Below, in pieces: positions 1 through 9,597 of a stretch of DNA of 9,597 nucleotides. Position numbers and translations under genes: made by a program. Below the pieces are notes generated by a model that ran no database searches, was not told the DNA's origin, and worked only from the letters and a program-made list of their open reading frames with translations. How positions within the stretch are numbered: position 1 is the stretch's first letter; the number at the start of each line of letters is the position of its first letter. This stretch comes from a bacterium. GTDB lineage: Bacteria; ARS69. The DNA is taken from NCBI GenBank assembly GCA_025774865.1, contig JALGZO010000315.1, forward strand, positions 1-9,597, read 5' to 3'.

Positions 1-163
1 CGAGTCCGCGGTACGGGCGAATCTCCGGGTACTTCGCGGCGAGCTCCGGGTGCATGACCCGGGCGCGATAGATCGTGAATCGCTCCCAGGTACCGTCGGG
101 CATCGGGAGGCCGATCTCGACCGTTGAAGCGACCGTCCACTCACGGGGAGCGCCGGCGAGGGA
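1..163 (-). pseudogene. Inverted N-terminal propeptide fragment of a reprolysin-like metallopeptidase
   Basis: Read on the minus strand, this stretch is open from a TAG stop at 184-182 to the window edge. From about 163 it gives LAGAPREWTVASTVEIG, then LPMPDGTWERF, then VMHPELAAKYPEIRPYRGL. The LPMPDGxxxRF, HPELAAKYPEIR and YRG motifs are those I know from the propeptide of secreted M12B/reprolysin-like bacterial metallopeptidases, which normally sits directly before the domain encoded on the + strand from about 137-160 onward. The fragment has no signal peptide and no usable upstream start, and it is cut at base 1. It is therefore not a complete divergent gene but looks like the missing N-terminal part of the neighbouring peptidase in opposite orientation. 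The junction must lie somewhere in about 128-160. A real inversion, a paralogue remnant and an assembly chimera are all possible. The exact right border is uncertain. Confidence 0.68.
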
Positions 164-232
164 CGCTACGCCGTCGCGTTTCTACGCGATCTGATCCTGG
201 GACCCGACGAGCTGGGCGTTCCCGCGTGCGAA

Positions 233-1972
233 GTGCAGGCGGATCCCGGCGTCGTCGAGGAGCACAACCGGCTCGTGGACGGCTTTCTCCGGGGCGGAGG
301 GATCTCCCACGGCGACATGCTCTACACGTACCGACTGGCGTTCGCAGTCACCGGGGAGTGGACCGCCCAGGCCGGCGGCACTGTGTCGGCGGGCCTGGCC
401 CGGATCGTGGAGACGGTGAACCGCATCAACGAGATCATGGGGCAAGACTGGTCGGTGGCGCTGGAGCTCGTCCCGAACAACGACCTTCTCGTCTACACGA
501 ACGGCGCAACGGATCCGTACTCCAACGGCAACCTGGGCGCGATGATCGACCAGAACCAGAACAACGTGAATTCGGTCATCGGTAGCGCCAACTACGACAT
601 CGGACACGTCTCCGGGACCGGTGGAGAGAGCGGGCTTGCGGGCTTCCGCGTCGTCTGCAACAACGGCTCGAAGGCGCGCGGTGCCGGCCAGCACAACAGC
701 ACGGGCGGCGAGCAGTACAAGCTGGTCACGGCGCACGAAATGGGCCACCAGTTCGGCGCGAGCCACACGTTCAACTCGAGCCACTCCTCCTGCATCGGAC
801 AGCGATCGGCTGCGTCGGCGTACGAGCCGGGCGGCGGCTCCACGATCATGGCGTACGCCGGGAGGTGCGGAGACCAGCAGATCCAGCCGGACTGGGACCC
901 GTACTATCACGCACAGACATATGCGCAGGTGGTCGCCAACATCACGGGCGGACCGGGGTCCCTCTGCCCCACCGTCACGCCGACCGGCAACACGCCCCCG
1001 GTCGCCCTGGCCGAGACCGTCGGACACTTCGTTCCGCTCGACACGCCCTGGCTGATGAACGGCAGCGCGACCGACGCCGACGGCGACAGCCTCACCTACT
1101 GCTGGGAACAGTACGATCTGGGTCCGGCCGGTCACCCGAACTCCCCCGAGGCCAACGCGCCGATCTTCCGCTCCTTCTCGCCCACGACCAACACCTTCAG
1201 GTACTTCCCGAGGATCGGGCGCATCCTGAACAACAATCACCGCATCGGCGAGATCCTCCCGACCTACGAGCGCAACGTCCGACTCCGCCTCACCGTGCGG
1301 GACGGCCTCGGGGGCGTGCACTGGGACCAGGGCTTCGTCGGCGTCGACGGCACCGCCGGACCGTTCCAGGTAACGTCGCAGTCCACCGCGACGACCTGGA
1401 ACTCGGGCACGCAGGAGACGATCACGTGGGACGTCGCGAACTCCGACAACGGAATCGTCAACTGTCAGACCGTCAACATCCTGATGTCCGAGGGCGCAAT
1501 CACGTTCCCCCACGTGCTCGCTTCCGGAGTACCCAACGACGGATCGCAGATGATCACCGTGCCGCCCGTGAACGTCCCCGACGCGCGCGTCATGGTCCAG
1601 GCCGCGGACAACATCTTCTACGACATCAACGACGGGGACATCACGATCATCGTCGACGCAACCGACGTGACGCTGCCGAATGCCGTCGCGGCCGGACTGA
1701 GCCTGGAGCCGGCTCGTCCGAATCCGTTCGCCGGCACCACGAGGATCGCTTACTCGGTCCCCACGCGGGGCCACGCGTCGATGCGCATCTACGACACGGC
1801 CGGGCGGCTCGTGCGCGTCCTCTTCGACGAGACCGTCGCGGAGGGACAACACGCCGCGGAGTGGGACGGATTGGACCGGAGCGGCTCCCCCGTCGCCTCG
1901 GGCGTCTACTTCGTCCGCCTGAAGACGGAGCGTGGCAGCACCGGGATGCAGAAGGTGCACCTGCTTCGATAA
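233..1972 (+). CDS. Secreted zinc metallopeptidase (reprolysin-like, M12B type) with C-terminal sorting tail; 5' end disrupted
   Basis: The product is probably an extracellular zinc endopeptidase. Counting from the GTG at 233, an N-terminal alpha/beta region (about 30-165) precedes the zinc site AHEMGHQFGASH (H168, E169, H172, H178), a full HExxHxxGxxH motif. The Met-turn follows as GGGSTIMAYAG (M206). After it come beta-sandwich-like regions (about 255-480) and a FlgD-Ig-like tail (about 487-579) with RPNPF, YDTAGRLVRV, SGVYFVRL and a terminal KVHLLR. Such tails are known to direct or anchor export in type IX-like systems. The start is not credible: 233 is a GTG without a Shine-Dalgarno, the frame is open back to a TGA at 125-127 with no ATG, and recognisable sequence (GRYAVAFLRDL) lies upstream of 233. 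Signal peptide and propeptide are missing, and part of the propeptide is readable on the opposite strand at 1-163. The catalytic domain is intact. Family assignment is confident; a functional start is doubtful. Confidence 0.88.
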   Translation: MQADPGVVEEHNRLVDGFLRGGGISHGDMLYTYRLAFAVTGEWTAQAGGTVSAGLARIVETVNRINEIMGQDWSVALELVPNNDLLVYTNGATDPYSNGNLGAMIDQNQNNVNSVIGSANYDIGHVSGTGGESGLAGFRVVCNNGSKARGAGQHNSTGGEQYKLVTAHEMGHQFGASHTFNSSHSSCIGQRSAASAYEPGGGSTIMAYAGRCGDQQIQPDWDPYYHAQTYAQVVANITGGPGSLCPTVTPTGNTPPVALAETVGHFVPLDTPWLMNGSATDADGDSLTYCWEQYDLGPAGHPNSPEANAPIFRSFSPTTNTFRYFPRIGRILNNNHRIGEILPTYERNVRLRLTVRDGLGGVHWDQGFVGVDGTAGPFQVTSQSTATTWNSGTQETITWDVANSDNGIVNCQTVNILMSEGAITFPHVLASGVPNDGSQMITVPPVNVPDARVMVQAADNIFYDINDGDITIIVDATDVTLPNAVAAGLSLEPARPNPFAGTTRIAYSVPTRGHASMRIYDTAGRLVRVLFDETVAEGQHAAEWDGLDRSGSPVASGVYFVRLKTERGSTGMQKVHLLR

Positions 1973-2032: not shown

Positions 2033-4570
2033 CTACTCGAGGACGACGATCTTGCGGCTGATGCGCTCGCCTCCCGCTTCCGCGACGGCGAAATAGACCC
2101 CGGCGACCATGTCATGCAGCGGCACGGTCACGCGTCGCACGAATCCGCTCCCCCTGGCCTGATCATCGACGCGACGAACGAGGCGACCACGGACGTCGAA
2201 GACGTCGAGCGTCGCGGCCACGGGGCGTTTCGCGGCCCACCGCAGAATGATCTCGTCACGCGCGGGGTTCGGAAACGGCGGATCGAGCATCAGGTTCCGC
2301 GACGAGATTCCCACCTGGGGGGAGGTCGTGGTCAGAGGCGGCGTGATCTCCACCGTCCACGCGCCACGCCCGTGCGTTCCGGCCACGAGCGTGCGCGATG
2401 CTTCCTGGATCTCGAGGTCCCAGACGACCGTGTTCGGCAGACCCACCGAGTAGGGGCCCCAGTGGAACCCGGCGTTCGTGGTGGCCCAGACGCCCAAGTC
2501 GGTTCCCACGAACCAGTGCTCGGGCGCGAGCGGATCCGCGGCGATCGCACGCACGGAGATCGACGGGAGATTCCCGGTGACGTCCTGCCAGGTGGCCCCG
2601 AAGTCCGAGGTTCGCGCCACGCGAGCGACTCCCTCCGTGTACCCGGCGAACGTCACGAACGCCGACGCGGAATCGGCGGGGTCGGCCAGGATCCGGAACT
2701 CGCTTCCGGTGGCAAAGGGGAACGGTGCCGCGTCATTCCAATTCACGCCGTCGTCGATCGTGTACTTCGCCCCGTCTTCCAGAATCCAAACGACGTCGCC
2801 ATTGACCGGACTGATGGAGATCGACTTCGCGGGAATCGTATTGACGCGAACCCAGCTGTCGCCACCGTTCGAGGTCCGCCACGTTCCCTGTCCCGACGAG
2901 GAACGCATCGTGTAGAGCTCCTGCGGATTGCTGCGGTTGAGATCGAGAGGTGTGTACCAGGAACCCGCGCCCGGCGGGATTCCGTTCTCGATGCTCACCC
3001 ACGTCACACCGCCGTTCGTCGACTTGCGGAGCTGCCCGAATTGCATCTCACCGACGATCACGTCCGCATCGAAGGGGTCGATCACGCAGACCATACCGTC
3101 GTCGGGGAGTCCGTCGTTCCAGTGATTCGAGCCGGACGGACGGATGTCCGTACCGTTGTCCTGCGTACCGCCCGCAAGACGCGTGGGGTCGGACTGGGCC
3201 ACACAAATGTCATAGAACTGAAACGTGCTGAGACCGTTGTTCCGGTCCGCCCACGTGTCGCCGTCGTCCGTCGTCAGGAAGACGCCGCCGTCGGTCGCGA
3301 CCCAAAGCTGATCCGGAGAACCGGGACGATAGCGGGCGTCGTGGTGGTCGACGTGCACGACACCCTGCGCGATCACGAAAAACGTCGTGGCTCCGTCGGT
3401 CGACCGGAAGAGGCGGACGCCGCCGGTGACGACTCGATCGCGATCGTTCGGATCGGCCGCGATTGACAGATTGAACCAGCCCTGGACACCACCGACGTTC
3501 GTCGATGTGTTGCGAGCCGACCAGCTGGCGCCTCCGTCGGTGCTCCGATAAATCCCCGTCGTGTTGACGCCAGGCTTGTCTTCGAAAATGACGTAGACGT
3601 ACTCCGGGTCGTCCGGGGTGACCGCGATCTTCGACTTCCCGATGAGAGAGGCTGACGGTTGGCCCGTCCCCGCGAACGCGAACGTCAGACCGTCGTCGGT
3701 GGAGATCTTGACCCCGTTGCCGACCGCGCCGCCGCCCTGGACCGTGTACACGGTGTTGGGATCGCCCGGCTTCCACTTCACGTCGTGGTGATCTTCGCCC
3801 ACGATCACCTGATCCCAGGTGGCGCCGTTGTCCGACGAGCGCCACAACCCGTCGATCGCGCCGGCGAGGAATGTCCCGTTCGGCCCCACCTCCACGAGGT
3901 GGAAGCCGTGCCCTTCGTTGCGCGTATGGGTCAAGCTCGTCGTCAGCCAGGTCGCGCCGCCGTCCTCGGAGCGGAGGATCCCGACCCCCGAGATCCCGCC
4001 CGTGATGCTGCCCGGGAGCTCCCCCGTCGCGATGACGATGACGTTCGGCTGCGTCGGGTGAATGGCGACCCCCGACACGGCGAGAGACGGGATGTTGTCG
4101 GTGAGGGGCTCCCACGAGGAGGCGTCGATGGTCGAGCGCCACAGGCCCCCTCCGGCCGATCCCGCGTAGACGATGCTCGGATCGACGGGATCGAACGTGA
4201 GCGCGAGAATCCGACCCGAGAAATTCGCGGGGCCGAGATTGAACCAGGCGGCACGGGGGGTCGGGCCGTCGGCCGGGAACGCCCTTTCCTTCTCCTCCCA
4301 GGCGCGCCACCGGGCTCCGAAGGCGGGGGGCCGACCGTCGACGAGATTCGCCTCGTACTCCCATTTGACACGGTTGTACGGCTTCCAGCCGCTGCCGGGC
4401 GTGGTCTTCAGCTCGGGATGCCGCTCATAGAAGGCAGCCTTCTCGGCGAGCCAGTCGAGCAAGGGTACGGCGGAAACGGGCGGATCGAGCGCCGGCGATG
4501 GAGCGGCGAACCAACTGACGGCCGCGACGGCGAAGACCGCGATCTGCAGGGGAGGACGGATCCAGGGCAT
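2033..4570 (-). CDS. Secreted BNR/Asp-box beta-propeller protein (sortilin/VPS10-like) with C-terminal sorting tail
   Basis: The 845-residue product is probably extracellular or cell-surface, with no reaction assigned. The start chosen is the ATG at 4570-4568. It has GGAG eight bases upstream and opens a signal peptide (W3-I-R then a hydrophobic run from about 8 to 23, likely cleavage after SPA27). The frame could extend to a GTG at 4666 but that adds a non-hydrophobic leader. A pre-propeller region with WFNLGPANFSGRI (about 109-121) precedes many Asp-box repeats of the S-x-D-x-G-x-x-W type, among them RSEDGGATW, RSSDNGATW, RSTDGGASW, TTDDGDTW, KSTNGGVTW, RTSNGGDSW and RTSDFGATW. I count about eleven including weak copies, which suggests one or two propellers. 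The tail (about 760-845) has FPNPARDE, DVRGRLVRR, VAGVYF and a KIVVLE end. Asp-box folds occur in sialidases and adhesins, but I see no catalytic signature, so a binding or structural role is as likely. It converges on the metallopeptidase. Confidence 0.88.
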   Translation of the reverse strand: MPWIRPPLQIAVFAVAAVSWFAAPSPALDPPVSAVPLLDWLAEKAAFYERHPELKTTPGSGWKPYNRVKWEYEANLVDGRPPAFGARWRAWEEKERAFPADGPTPRAAWFNLGPANFSGRILALTFDPVDPSIVYAGSAGGGLWRSTIDASSWEPLTDNIPSLAVSGVAIHPTQPNVIVIATGELPGSITGGISGVGILRSEDGGATWLTTSLTHTRNEGHGFHLVEVGPNGTFLAGAIDGLWRSSDNGATWDQVIVGEDHHDVKWKPGDPNTVYTVQGGGAVGNGVKISTDDGLTFAFAGTGQPSASLIGKSKIAVTPDDPEYVYVIFEDKPGVNTTGIYRSTDGGASWSARNTSTNVGGVQGWFNLSIAADPNDRDRVVTGGVRLFRSTDGATTFFVIAQGVVHVDHHDARYRPGSPDQLWVATDGGVFLTTDDGDTWADRNNGLSTFQFYDICVAQSDPTRLAGGTQDNGTDIRPSGSNHWNDGLPDDGMVCVIDPFDADVIVGEMQFGQLRKSTNGGVTWVSIENGIPPGAGSWYTPLDLNRSNPQELYTMRSSSGQGTWRTSNGGDSWVRVNTIPAKSISISPVNGDVVWILEDGAKYTIDDGVNWNDAAPFPFATGSEFRILADPADSASAFVTFAGYTEGVARVARTSDFGATWQDVTGNLPSISVRAIAADPLAPEHWFVGTDLGVWATTNAGFHWGPYSVGLPNTVVWDLEIQEASRTLVAGTHGRGAWTVEITPPLTTTSPQVGISSRNLMLDPPFPNPARDEIILRWAAKRPVAATLDVFDVRGRLVRRVDDQARGSGFVRRVTVPLHDMVAGVYFAVAEAGGERISRKIVVLE

Positions 4571-4578
4571 GGGACGGA

Positions 4579-4582
4579 CTCC
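4579..4582 (-). promoter_or_regulatory. Shine-Dalgarno (GGAG) of the BNR propeller gene
   Basis: GGAG on the minus strand ends eight bases before the ATG at 4570. It decides the start in favour of this ATG, which also opens the signal peptide, over the in-frame GTG at 4666. Confidence 0.6.
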
Positions 4583-4615
4583 GGATTCAGCGGAGAGCAC
4601 GCCGTGATGGTAATG

Positions 4616-4621
4616 AATATA
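4616..4621 (-). promoter_or_regulatory. Candidate -10 element (TATATT) for the BNR propeller gene
   Basis: TATATT on the minus strand matches the sigma-70 -10 consensus at five of six positions and lies about 45 bases upstream of the chosen start, in a small AT-rich island within GC-rich DNA. No convincing -35 hexamer is found at 16-18 bases. The position where one would lie is occupied by the inverted repeat at 4627-4653. Confidence 0.35.
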
Positions 4622-4626
4622 CGCCC

Positions 4627-4653
4627 CCCGGGGTCCGGACCCTAGACCCCGGG
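4627..4653. repeat. Inverted repeat in the divergent intergenic region (possible operator)
   Basis: CCCGGGGTC (4627-4635) and GACCCCGGG (4645-4653) are perfect 9-bp inverted arms around a 9-base spacer. Nested within it is the perfect 12-base palindrome GGGTCCGGACCC (4631-4642). It sits just upstream of the candidate -10 of the BNR gene, where a repressor or activator site could lie. No T-run follows, so it is not a typical terminator. The regulatory role is inferred from position and symmetry only. Confidence 0.4.
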
Positions 4654-4683
4654 CGACAGGTCTCACCAGTCTATTCTGGGGGC

Positions 4684-4812: not shown

Positions 4813-5718
4813 ATGAACATCCATCTCGTCGATGGCACCTACGAGCTCTTCCGGCACTACTTCGCGCTGCCGTCACGCGTCGATCGCGAGGGCCGCGAGG
4901 TGGGCGCCCTCGTGGGTGTCGTCAGCTCGATCCTCGCCATGCTGCGGGACGGCGCCACCCATGTCGGGGTGGCGACGGACCACACCGTGGAATCGTTCCG
5001 GAACGACCTCTACGACGGCTACAAGACGGGGGACGGCATCGAGCCCGAGCTCTGGGACCAATTCCATCCGCTCGAAAAGGCCTTGCGGGCGCTCGGCGTC
5101 GTCGTCTGGCCGATGGACGACCAAGAGGCGGACGACGGGCTCGCCGCAGCCGCGCACCGGGCGGCGGCTGATCCACGCGTCGAGCGGGTGTTCGTATGCA
5201 CCCCGGACAAGGATCTCGCCCAGTGCGTGCGCGGCGACCGGGTCGTCCAGTTCGATCGTCGCCGCCGCATCCTGCGAAACGAGCGCGGCGTGCACGAGAA
5301 GTTCGGCGTCGGTCCCGAGTCCATCCCAGACTGGCTCGCTCTCGTCGGCGACGCCGCCGACGGCTTCCCGGGCGTCCCCCGCTGGGGCGCCAAGAGCGCG
5401 GCGGTCGTCCTCGATCACTACGAGCACCTCGAGTCGATCCCTCGCGACGGAACGTCCTGGAAAGTGAGCGTTCGCGGCGCCGCCGCTCTCGCCCTGAGTC
5501 TCCGCGACGCCTGGGAGGATGCGCTTCTCTTTCGCGATCTCGCGACGCTTCGCACGGATGCGGACGTGTTCGCCTCGGTCGACGAGCTCCGGTGGGCGGG
5601 CCCCACCCACCGCTTCGCGGCGCTCTGCGACCGTCTCGACGCCCAAGAGCTCGTCACCCGCGCGACCGCGATCAGGCCCGGAAGCGTGGAGACCGGGGCA
5701 GGCCGAGAGCTGCTTTGA
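4813..5718 (+). CDS. 5'-3' exonuclease / flap endonuclease (PIN-like fold with H3TH domain)
   Basis: This cytoplasmic metal-dependent nuclease probably removes 5' flaps or RNA primers, like the N-terminal domain of DNA polymerase I or E. coli ExoIX. Its 301 residues match the size of stand-alone members. The acidic metal-site residues are all in place: LVDG (D7), VATDH (D56) with SFR and YK (R63, K71), QEADDGLA (E105, D107, D108), TPDKDLAQCV (D132, D134), and GDAADGFPGVPRWGAKSA (D180, D183), which is the helix-3-turn-helix DNA-binding segment. The basic residue usually following YK (YKxxR) is absent here (YKTGDG). The ATG start lacks a Shine-Dalgarno but fits a leaderless promoter. The stop overlaps the next gene's TTG start by four bases, so the two are probably co-transcribed and translationally coupled. 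Family assignment is firm; in vivo substrate is inferred. Confidence 0.92.
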   Translation: MNIHLVDGTYELFRHYFALPSRVDREGREVGALVGVVSSILAMLRDGATHVGVATDHTVESFRNDLYDGYKTGDGIEPELWDQFHPLEKALRALGVVVWPMDDQEADDGLAAAAHRAAADPRVERVFVCTPDKDLAQCVRGDRVVQFDRRRRILRNERGVHEKFGVGPESIPDWLALVGDAADGFPGVPRWGAKSAAVVLDHYEHLESIPRDGTSWKVSVRGAAALALSLRDAWEDALLFRDLATLRTDADVFASVDELRWAGPTHRFAALCDRLDAQELVTRATAIRPGSVETGAGRELL

Positions 5719-7496
5719 GCGCCATCTGCGGAATCCACAGCCCCGGCGATCCCGGTCGGGCAGCTCCCGAGATTCTCGAACGAATGCTGGCCGCCCTCGC
5801 CCTTAACGGCGAGACCACGCGATCGTTCGTCGATCCGAAGTCCGGCCTGGCGCTCGGCCGCGTGGCCCGACCGGAGCCGGCTCGGCCGGGGGATCCGAGT
5901 CCGGAGTGGCACGAGAGCGACCACGTCGTGGTGGCGCTCGAGGGGATCGTCGCGAGCGACCCGGAGCATCGGGCGGCGCCGGCTCGAAGTGTCGCCCGCA
6001 CTCTCGAGGCGGACGAAACCGGCTTCCCCGCCGGGCTTCACGGACAGTTCGGGCTCGCGGCCTGGAGCTCCGTCTCGCGAACGCTGCGGCTGGCGCGCGA
6101 CCCGCTCGGGGCCGGCGATCTGTACTGGTTCCACGATCCTGCTACCGGCCTCGCGGTGTTCTCCAGCGAGCTCAAGGGCCTCGTCGGTCACCCCGCTGTT
6201 CCCCGGCGGGTCGATCCCGAAGCCCTGGCGGCACTCCTGGCGATCGGTTACCTGCCGGCGCCGCTCTGCCCGTTTCGAGACGTTCACAAGATGTTCGCGG
6301 GCGAGGTCGTCGAGCTGGACCGCCGCGGGCGCGCCGCCGCCCGGCGCTACTGGACGATGCCGGCGTACGCTCCGCGGCGCGCCGGCGGTGACGAGCTCGC
6401 CGCCGAGGCCCGGCAGTTGGTTCTCGACCGCTTCGCGTGCGTCGTCGACGGGCAGGAGCGAATCGGGGTGTTCCTCAGTGGTGGCGTCGACTCCACGATC
6501 GCACTGGGCGTTCTCGATCTGATCGGGATTCCGGAGCTGCCCTCCTTCGCGTTCGGCTCTCGGATCGGTCCGGCGCGCTACGCCGAGGATCTCGCCTGGG
6601 CGAAGCGCGCGGCCGACGCGCGGGGAGCCCCGTTCCATCCGGTCGTCATCGAACCCGGTCACGATCCGGTACCCCGGCTCGAGGAGGTGTGGCGCCATTT
6701 CGATGATCCCGTGCTGAGTCCGAACGCCTACACGAGGTTCCTCCTGGCCGAGGCCGCGCACCGGGACGATGTTCCCATGTGTGTCGGAGGCTCCACGGCC
6801 GGCTCCTTGTTCGGAACGAACTCCGACGAATCCGTCGCGAAGATGATTCGAAAGTCCGGCGCGACGAGCCCGCCCGCGCTCCTGGCCCACCGCTTCAACC
6901 GCATCTTCCCCTTCGATGAGATCGGTGACCTGCTGGCCGAGCCGCCGGAGAGCCCGGGTCGGATCGGGCTCGACCTCGCCGAGCGCTACTGCGCCGACAT
7001 CGACACGGACAGCGTCGGAGAGGTGATCAAACTGGCGATGTTGCGCATCGCGGGCGCGGAGAAGTCCACGGCCACCCAGAATCGAAGCGCGAGGCTCGCC
7101 GGGGTGAACGTGCGCCACCCGTTCCGTGACGTCGCCATTCTCGAGTTCAGCCGAACGATCCCGATCGATCTCAAGGGGCGACGCGATCCGGAGCAATCGA
7201 AGCACCTGCTGAAGCGCGCGTTCCGCGACGTCCTACCGGCCGAGATCGCGGCGCGCGAGAAGATCGGGTATCCCAGTTACTACTGGACGGGCGGTGAGAT
7301 CGACTCGCTCGCGGAAACGCTGCTCTCTCCCCGAGCCGTAGAGCGGGCCGGATTGTTCCGACCGGACCGTGTTCAGCAGATCCTCGACGAGGATCGGGCG
7401 AGCGGGAAGAAGTCGGCCGGGAAACGCACGTGGGCCCTGCTGACGATGCAGGCTTGGCACGCGTTCTACATCGAGGGACGCGAATCGCTCGTCTGA
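5715..7496 (+). CDS. Asparagine-synthetase-like protein (class II amidotransferase + ATP-pyrophosphatase domains), diverged active sites
   Basis: The 593-residue protein has the two-domain layout of AsnB. The N-terminal half starts M-S-A-I-C-G-I and contains RDPLGAGDLYW and FSSELKGL; the C-terminal half has the PP-loop FLSGGVDST (S255-T261) and AREKIGYPSYYW near the end. The TTG at 5715 is the only start that includes the ICGI motif; it overlaps the exonuclease stop (TTGA). The enzyme class activates a carboxylate as acyl-AMP and attacks it with ammonia or an amine. Several key features are altered. The cysteine is residue 5, not 2. The NGEIYN glutamine-binding motif reads LEGIVAS. The second acidic loop, GDGGDELFGG in the family, reads GGSTAGSLFG (about 358-367), losing its acidic residues. 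Glutamine-dependent asparagine synthesis is therefore doubtful. A diverged amide- or lactam-forming role or loss of one activity is possible. The 3' end overlaps a convergent gene by 31 bp. Confidence 0.85.
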   Translation: MSAICGIHSPGDPGRAAPEILERMLAALALNGETTRSFVDPKSGLALGRVARPEPARPGDPSPEWHESDHVVVALEGIVASDPEHRAAPARSVARTLEADETGFPAGLHGQFGLAAWSSVSRTLRLARDPLGAGDLYWFHDPATGLAVFSSELKGLVGHPAVPRRVDPEALAALLAIGYLPAPLCPFRDVHKMFAGEVVELDRRGRAAARRYWTMPAYAPRRAGGDELAAEARQLVLDRFACVVDGQERIGVFLSGGVDSTIALGVLDLIGIPELPSFAFGSRIGPARYAEDLAWAKRAADARGAPFHPVVIEPGHDPVPRLEEVWRHFDDPVLSPNAYTRFLLAEAAHRDDVPMCVGGSTAGSLFGTNSDESVAKMIRKSGATSPPALLAHRFNRIFPFDEIGDLLAEPPESPGRIGLDLAERYCADIDTDSVGEVIKLAMLRIAGAEKSTATQNRSARLAGVNVRHPFRDVAILEFSRTIPIDLKGRRDPEQSKHLLKRAFRDVLPAEIAAREKIGYPSYYWTGGEIDSLAETLLSPRAVERAGLFRPDRVQQILDEDRASGKKSAGKRTWALLTMQAWHAFYIEGRESLV

Positions 7497-8494
7497 GCGG
7501 GGTCGTACGTTTCGAGCTCGCGGCGACCGAACTCCGCGAGCTGGCGCGTCGCGGTCCGCCAGTCTTCCCGGCGGCGCACGACCTCTGTCGCGGCCAGTTT
7601 CACGAACGTATAGGCCTTGTAGAACGGCGTCAGGGTCCGGGCACCTTGGCCCATGATCTCTTCGTAAGTCATGAGGAATCGCCGCGACGACTCATGGGCC
7701 GCGCTTACCCCGCGTCCCGTACGCCACGCGTGTCGCTCGAGGTGCGCCAGGAAGTGCCCCACGTCGAGCGCGGCGTCGCCGACGCCGACCTCGTCGAGGT
7801 CCAGCCCCCAGATCGCAGCGCCATCCCAGAGCAGGTTCGCGTAGTAGAAGTCCTTGTGGATGACGACCGGCGAGCCCACCGAGGCCATTCGAGACGAAGC
7901 GGCGTCGAGGGCGCGGGCCAGACCCCGTTCGTCTTCCGCCGAGAGATGGGAGCGGATCTCGTCGAACCAGCCCTCCAGCCGCGCGAGTCTCCCCCCGGTC
8001 GGGACGAACCTCAGACCCTCGGGCGGATCACACCCGTGGAGCCGGGCGAGCCACGTTCCGGCGAGCTCGAACGGCGCGACGCTCGCATCGGTTTCGATGA
8101 AGTCGCGGAGGTCGATGCCGTCGATGCCGCTCTGCAGGACGAGCCCGAGCTCCTCGATGAAACTCAACGCCGCGGGGAGCCGGGTCCGGCCCGCGTCGGA
8201 GAACGCGAGGGCGCCGAGCTCGATCTGCCGGTCGTACATGCGCCGCGCCCGCCGTCGGCTGCGGTAGAGCTTCCCGATGAGCCCGCCCCGGCTCTCCGCG
8301 CTCGAGTCGCCCACCGGCGTGTAGCGGATCGTGCAGCGCTGCCCGACCTTGTGACTCAGGATCGTCGCGTGGTGACCCCGCGCCGAACGCGGGTGCGTCG
8401 CGCGATCCAGGATCTCCTGCATCGCCACCGAATCGAGGGCTCGCTCCAGAGCCGGAAGGGCCGGGTCGAGCATGGTCCCGGGCGAGGTCGCCAT
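7466..8494 (-). CDS. APH/choline-kinase-fold phosphotransferase
   Basis: This 342-residue cytoplasmic protein probably transfers phosphate from a nucleotide to an unknown small molecule. Motifs seen: GGLIGKLYR (candidate N-lobe nucleotide-binding lysine), the catalytic loop IHKDFYYANLL (H213, D215, N220; Brenner-type HxDxxxxN) and the metal loop GLDLDEVGVGDAALDVGHF (D232, D234). The frame stays open to 8962 but everything above the ATG at 8494 lies antisense-offset over the preceding kinase, so that extension is spurious. The ATG has GGGAGG nine bases upstream and begins one base after the upstream kinase's TGA, giving a coupled two-gene operon. The C-terminus ends inside the convergent Asn-synthetase-like gene. 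Members of this superfamily include aminoglycoside, homoserine, choline and sugar kinases; nothing here points to antibiotic resistance. Confidence 0.85.
   Translation of the reverse strand: MATSPGTMLDPALPALERALDSVAMQEILDRATHPRSARGHHATILSHKVGQRCTIRYTPVGDSSAESRGGLIGKLYRSRRRARRMYDRQIELGALAFSDAGRTRLPAALSFIEELGLVLQSGIDGIDLRDFIETDASVAPFELAGTWLARLHGCDPPEGLRFVPTGGRLARLEGWFDEIRSHLSAEDERGLARALDAASSRMASVGSPVVIHKDFYYANLLWDGAAIWGLDLDEVGVGDAALDVGHFLAHLERHAWRTGRGVSAAHESSRRFLMTYEEIMGQGARTLTPFYKAYTFVKLAATEVVRRREDWRTATRQLAEFGRRELETYDPAQTSDSRPSM
7515..7542. repeat. Inverted repeat just beyond the convergent gene ends
   Basis: AGCTCGCGG (7515-7523) and CCGCGAGCT (7534-7542) form a perfect 9-bp stem with a 10-base loop. 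It begins 19 bases after the Asn-synthetase-like stop codon, inside the 3' coding part of the convergent kinase. No T-run follows on either side, so it is at best a weak or factor-assisted transcription end or mRNA 3' stabiliser. Confidence 0.3.
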
Positions 8495-8495
8495 G

Positions 8496-9597
8496 TCACC
8501 GTACCTCCCACGCGGCGAGACGCTCTTGGGCCCGGCGCAGGAGCCGCCGACCGGGCCGCTGCCCCTCGCTGACCGCGACGCCCCGGGCGAGGTCGCCTTC
8601 CAGCGCCCGTACACCCTTTCGCGCGAGCGCGATGACCAGGTAGAGGCGGGCGGCCAGCCCGAGGTCCGGGTCGCAGCGTTCGCGGTCGACTTCGTCCAGG
8701 AACACTTCGGCGAGCGCGCGCAGCTCCGCTCGATCGAACCGCAACGCTTGCTCCTCGAGGATGGCCGCGAAGTTCCCCACGTCGATCGCACCGTCACCGA
8801 GGCAAGCTCGATCGAGGTCGACGATGCCCACACGATCCTCCTGCAGCAGGAGTTGGTCGGGTTTGAAGTCGCCGTGAACGAGCTCGAGAGGTCGTGAGGG
8901 AAGCTCGACGATCCGACCGCGCAAACGCTCGATGAGGGTCCCCAGCTCTTCGAGGAGAGCATCGCCCCCGGGAGTCAGACGTCCCGCCCGACTCGCGAGG
9001 CCGTCGAGGTCCCCCGCGAGAGTGCGACGCGTTCCGCTCTCCAGGCGCATCGACTGGAACGCTCCGATCGCTCGTGCGGCCGTCCGGACGAGGCCCTCCG
9101 CCCCGTTGGTCACGCCCGTGCCCGTCTTCAACCGACCCGCCAAATCGTCGCCGGTGAGCAGTTCCATCAGCACGAGCTCGTCCGGGCGCACCCGGCCGAG
9201 GGGGCGCGGAATCACGAGACCCCTCTCCATCGCCTGCGGTCCGAGGGACTGGAGCTTGCCGCGAACCTCGGCGGCGAGAGACGCCCGCCGGTACACCTTC
9301 CCGATCGCCGTCCCGCCGTCCGTCTCGTACCGCAACACGGCCGAGCGGTGCGCGCGGTAGCGCAGAACCTGCACCCGCCGAACGGGCGACGGTCCCTCTC
9401 CTCCGTCGAGCTCCGTGAGCGATACCGCTTCCCGAAGCGCCGGCACCTTGCGGTCAGCCGGAAACACCTCGACGAAACACGGCTCGTCCGGGAGAAGAAA
9501 CGCACCGCCCGGCGTGCGCTCGTCTCGATCGTGATACTTCTTTCGACGGATTCGGCTCAGCCTTTCGAGCGGAGCCCAGGTCAAGGTGACGTACTCC
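8496..9597 (-). CDS. APH/choline-kinase-fold phosphotransferase, 5' end beyond the window
   Basis: This is a second small-molecule kinase of the same fold, directly upstream of the first. Seen motifs: VQVLRYRAHRSAVLRY, then TAIGKVYRR (candidate nucleotide-binding lysine), the catalytic loop LVHGDFKPDQLLL (counting from the TTG at 9584: H237, D239) and VDLDRACLGDGAIDVGNF (D256, D258). The usual Asn of HxDxxxxN is Gln (Q244), a variant I know from bacterial phosphotransferase-family proteins and not necessarily inactivating. A TTG at 9584 is the first start-like codon, but the frame continues open to the edge (reading EYVT before it) and no ribosome site precedes it, so the gene is most likely truncated by the window. 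An additional N-terminal part (about 1-60, FVEVFPADRKVPAL) precedes the kinase lobe and is not found in the downstream paralogue. Substrate unknown. Confidence 0.82.
   Translation of the reverse strand, partial: EYVTLTWAPLERLSRIRRKKYHDRDERTPGGAFLLPDEPCFVEVFPADRKVPALREAVSLTELDGGEGPSPVRRVQVLRYRAHRSAVLRYETDGGTAIGKVYRRASLAAEVRGKLQSLGPQAMERGLVIPRPLGRVRPDELVLMELLTGDDLAGRLKTGTGVTNGAEGLVRTAARAIGAFQSMRLESGTRRTLAGDLDGLASRAGRLTPGGDALLEELGTLIERLRGRIVELPSRPLELVHGDFKPDQLLLQEDRVGIVDLDRACLGDGAIDVGNFAAILEEQALRFDRAELRALAEVFLDEVDRERCDPDLGLAARLYLVIALARKGVRALEGDLARGVAVSEGQRPGRRLLRRAQERLAAWEVR
8504..8509 (-). promoter_or_regulatory. Shine-Dalgarno (GGGAGG) for the downstream phosphotransferase
   Basis: GGGAGG on the minus strand lies within the last codons of the upstream kinase gene, nine bases before the ATG at 8494. 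It fixes that start and supports translational coupling across the TGA-C-ATG junction. Confidence 0.65.

Follow-up and report, generated by a model that had tools for sequence, protein, structure and literature searches.

A reprolysin-like metallopeptidase gene that lacks its 5' end occupies the left part of contig C318, and directly ahead of it, on the opposite strand, lies a stretch that reads as part of the propeptide of the same type of protein (Table 1). The window, meaning the whole stretch of DNA that was analysed, is this entire contig (9,597 bases; G000:C318:1-9597), so that base 1 is also a contig end. Next to the peptidase, window 2033-4666 (minus strand) encodes a protein of BNR/sortilin-like repeats that ends in a T9SS type A sorting tail; beyond this gene lie a free-standing 5'-3' exonuclease of the kind found at the N-terminus of DNA polymerase I and an asparagine-synthase-like gene (window 4813-7496, plus strand), the latter probably starting at TTG 5715 and overlapping the exonuclease stop. 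Two APH-fold kinases are encoded on the strand opposite to these two genes (window 7466-9596, minus strand), and lasso and lanthipeptide models scored far below their cut-offs against the genes of window 4813-9596.

The genome bin that contains C318 is fragmented (785 contigs, 4.7 Mb, completeness 92.65, contamination 8.3). Its contigs were fetched to the number of 139, of which 91 were readable and 48, all shorter than 3 kb, read as N. Genome-wide absences given below cover the readable contigs, and the 5' part of the peptidase gene may sit on one of the N-masked short contigs.

Table 1. Features at the left end of contig C318.
Feature	Position	Strand	Basis
Part (~53 residues) of the propeptide of a secreted reprolysin-like (M12B-type) peptidase, inverted and cut off by the contig end at base 1	1..166	-	tblastn, profile
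TGA closing the plus frame upstream	125..127	+	Open reading frame inspection
Junction zone, GGCGAGGGACGC	155..166		Alignments, sequence
5'-truncated reprolysin-like metallopeptidase with FlgD-Ig/T9SS type A C-terminal sorting tail	167..1972	+	Pfam, TIGR04183, relatives

The peptidase and the inverted propeptide fragment

The catalytic domain of the plus-strand peptidase matches Pfam Reprolysin_4 at 103.2 bits (cut-off 22), its translation contains the zinc motif AHEMGHQFGASH, which is of the HExxHxxGxxH zinc-binding type, and a type A sorting domain (TIGR04183; 33.2 bits, cut-off 23) marks it as T9SS cargo. With the reprolysin-like peptidases (Pfam Reprolysin_2/3/4/5, M12B-type) that bear TIGR04183, it shares the catalytic domain, the zinc motif, the sorting tail and the propeptide motifs, these last being inverted in C318, and it differs from them in its unassembled 5' end. 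It is 53-57% identical to its nearest relatives, to which a second copy in the same genome, on contig C510, is much closer, and no sequence relative was found among solved structures at E 0.001. The C318 peptidase is an ordinary T9SS-tailed member of its family. Searching genome G000 with the peptidase returned at least 150 matches, mostly via the C-terminal sorting domain, and the genome therefore encodes very many T9SS/FlgD-tailed proteins.

Inspection of the plus-strand frame bears out the initial annotation in that the frame meets a TGA at 125-127 and has no plausible start codon or signal peptide. This TGA falls within the inverted segment and is not a mutation of the peptidase gene. As assembled, no signal peptide and propeptide precede the catalytic domain in its own frame, the propeptide being present in inverted form at the contig end. 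On the minus strand, positions 2-181 form an open frame reading ...ASLAGAPREWTVASTVEIGLPMPDGTWERFTIYRARVMHPELAAKYPEIRPYRGL. Residues 6-59 of its translation, covering window 166-5, align with propeptides from the family to which the plus-strand peptidase belongs. The fragment scores 50.9 bits against a profile built from 82 relatives, tblastn against relatives gives values down to 5e-14, and a reverse search with the related protein L123 returned C318:5-166 on the minus strand (E 1.1e-12). Judged by these similarities, minus-strand 1-166 encodes a genuine propeptide, much as had been proposed for positions 1 to ~163, with the breakpoint at 155-167. Both halves, the minus-strand fragment and the plus-strand peptidase, have conserved motifs and open frames and are free of decay.

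The junction and gene order in relatives

Plus-strand homology to relatives begins at 155-167 (tblastn, alignments), and at this breakpoint two pieces of one gene type are joined head to head, the contig running from reversed propeptide through the breakpoint into the catalytic part, with about 110-125 bp absent at the join. In relatives, 41-43 codons separate YRG from the plus-strand start, and the window retains one codon and a base of these; a missing stretch had been predicted at 30-40 residues, and the gap is indeed there, its size being slightly larger than supposed. The bases of the junction zone can be read on either strand. On the minus strand they give ASLA, in agreement with the family's A-x-LA-x-AP, and on the plus strand they give GEGR, a weak fit to the GDAR/GDPR that stands before a conserved Y, needing a one-residue gap; the plus-strand alignment to the profile of 82 relatives stops short of GEGR. 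It is possible that these 12 bases (155-166) represent a complementary stretch shared by the two sides of the breakpoint.

The propeptide lies directly upstream of the catalytic part, on the same strand and in one uninterrupted frame, in 82 of 83 relatives, and none of the 83 carries the propeptide on the opposite strand. The distance measured in relatives from the propeptide motif to the plus start is 285-294 bp. In the exception, L083, the best catalytic match, at locus base 167, belongs to another copy near the locus edge, and a same-strand propeptide match at 3563-3727 shortly precedes position 4001, the site of the match by which the locus had been retrieved. Within the bin of C318, one orientation of the junction was assembled, and the second (left) junction of a would-be inverted segment is absent from the assembly. 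The readable contigs yielded neither the signal peptide region of the C318 peptidase nor a second or mirror-image copy of window 1-400, such as the initial annotation had suggested looking for. For a position drawn at random from this assembly, the chance of being 166 bp or less from a contig end is 5.5%.

Origin of the inverted contig end

The first ~166 bases are probably a fold-back (inverted) chimera at the contig end. This had been offered in the initial annotation as an alternative to a switchable gene, and it fits best with the position of base 1 at a contig end and with the collinearity of the relatives. The chimera is favoured because the join combines an inversion with an intervening deletion, its parts are closely spaced, it lies near a contig end and its tail is of about read length, and because no mechanism for a real inversion was found. 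The undecayed state of both halves also argues against an old rearrangement, since an old leaderless fragment would be expected to decay. On this model, a leftward-reading peptidase strand would have been joined at ~155-167 to the other strand of the propeptide-coding stretch ~290 bp upstream, during amplification, library preparation or assembly, an in vitro or in silico origin that we infer from the observed geometry, contig end and collinearity of relatives. Beyond the join, the tail would run backwards through the propeptide over roughly one read length to the contig end, and the organism's own gene would most likely be collinear, encoding in order a signal peptide, propeptide, catalytic domain and sorting tail.

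Among 475 chimeras obtained when a single E. coli cell was amplified, the inverted form with an intervening deletion (A'C) made up 85%, and of the inverted joins between segments less than 10 kb apart, 93.5% had complementary bases at the junction, the overall range extending up to 21 bp (PMC1855051); these figures serve here for geometry only. C318 resembles these fold-back products of strand-displacement amplification in its inverted join with deletion and in its short spacing, and complementary junction bases of the same kind are possible in it. Weighing against a chimera, none of the bin's 91 contigs that could be read ends in a long, near-exact inverted duplication, so that they offer no second example of the artefact in this assembly. 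In addition, at 155-166 bp the tail would be a little longer than a read of 150 bases, and an assembler should prefer the true collinear molecules if those were well covered.

Elsewhere in the bin, the contig ends L209/L260 and L213/L227 share exact 114-base overlaps, which points to de Bruijn assembly with k=115. The ~110-125 bp deletion is close to k-1 in size, an estimate too loose to be of use.

Rearrangement or a second paralogue

The spacing of 285-294 bp in relatives agrees with a clean inversion of a ~290 bp internal segment, and a single such event in the ancestry of this organism, with a disrupted (pseudo)gene as its outcome, would also be consistent with the one orientation present in the assembly. 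A fixed inversion of this kind is nevertheless unlikely, in that neither half is decayed, the junction is located at the end of a contig, none of the relatives has it and the second junction is missing from the assembly. The initial annotation had proposed an on/off or N-terminus-switching peptidase. In such a system, reversible inversion of a ~290 bp segment would part the catalytic domain from its signal peptide and propeptide and thereby switch secretion of the T9SS metallopeptidase on and off. The split and its inverted geometry stand as features of the assembly, and the one junction has the geometry expected of the off state, with a possible short complementary stretch; the switch itself is highly improbable. 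Invertible DNA switches reportedly operate by conservative site-specific recombination, and C318 resembles them in that a short segment toward the 5' end of a gene lies inverted, but it is without demonstrated flanking inverted repeats, invertase or second orientation. A nearby invertase, which the initial annotation had suggested looking for, did not turn up: the 9.6-kb contig contains no recombinase, the readable genome contains no serine recombinase (invertase) by a search that gave hits in 10 of the 14 genomes used as controls, and all four tyrosine recombinase matches lie on contigs other than C318. Flanking inverted repeats longer than 8 bp are absent in five relatives, C318 itself containing one border only, and the relatives are collinear (82 of 83). 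Mixed orientations would, moreover, be expected to branch or break the assembly at the junction, and the contig runs through it. Were the inversion real and reversible, it would be a switch lying inside the gene of a secreted protease; the main lesson of the locus is one of caution, in that a contig ending in a short inverted tail can mimic a split or invertible gene.

The minus-strand fragment might instead come from a different paralogue. The second family gene, on C510, starts at the first base of its contig, inside the linker, and the fragment could be, for example, the upstream part of this gene, either misassembled to C318 or lying head to head with the C318 peptidase. C510 begins about 10-11 codons past the end of the fragment in the family alignment, where a gap of ~30 bp would fit, and a grouping of the fragment with L122/L123, to which C510 is close, is not rejected by the tree test (AU p 0.23), the fragment being short. 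A paralogous source is all the same quite improbable on the evidence of divergence. The catalytic domain of C510 is 80% and 78% identical to L122 and L123, respectively, and the sequence comparison makes it a likely ortholog of genes in related genomes (clade support 97), whereas the fragment is 51% and 62% identical to the same two proteins, much as the catalytic domain of C318 is (57% and 54%). Branch lengths are likewise long for the fragment (0.90) and C318 (0.82), against 0.23 for C510. L122 and L123 are themselves 73% identical, and at 73% the probability of 19 or fewer matches in 37 positions to L122 is 0.004, that of 33 or fewer in 53 to L123 being 0.06. A head-to-head pair would in addition leave no space for the start of either gene. 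The evidence leans toward derivation of the fragment from C318's own gene, as the fold-back chimera supposes, with C510 as its rival. A contig end truncates each of the two paralogous peptidase genes (C318 and C510) in the same part, the propeptide/linker region, and the C510 gene (L022) has a frameshift at a G run at ~270-280, where ...YRTAIAATG continues as EYTIFHGGTV in another frame, reflecting either a sequencing error or a pseudogene.
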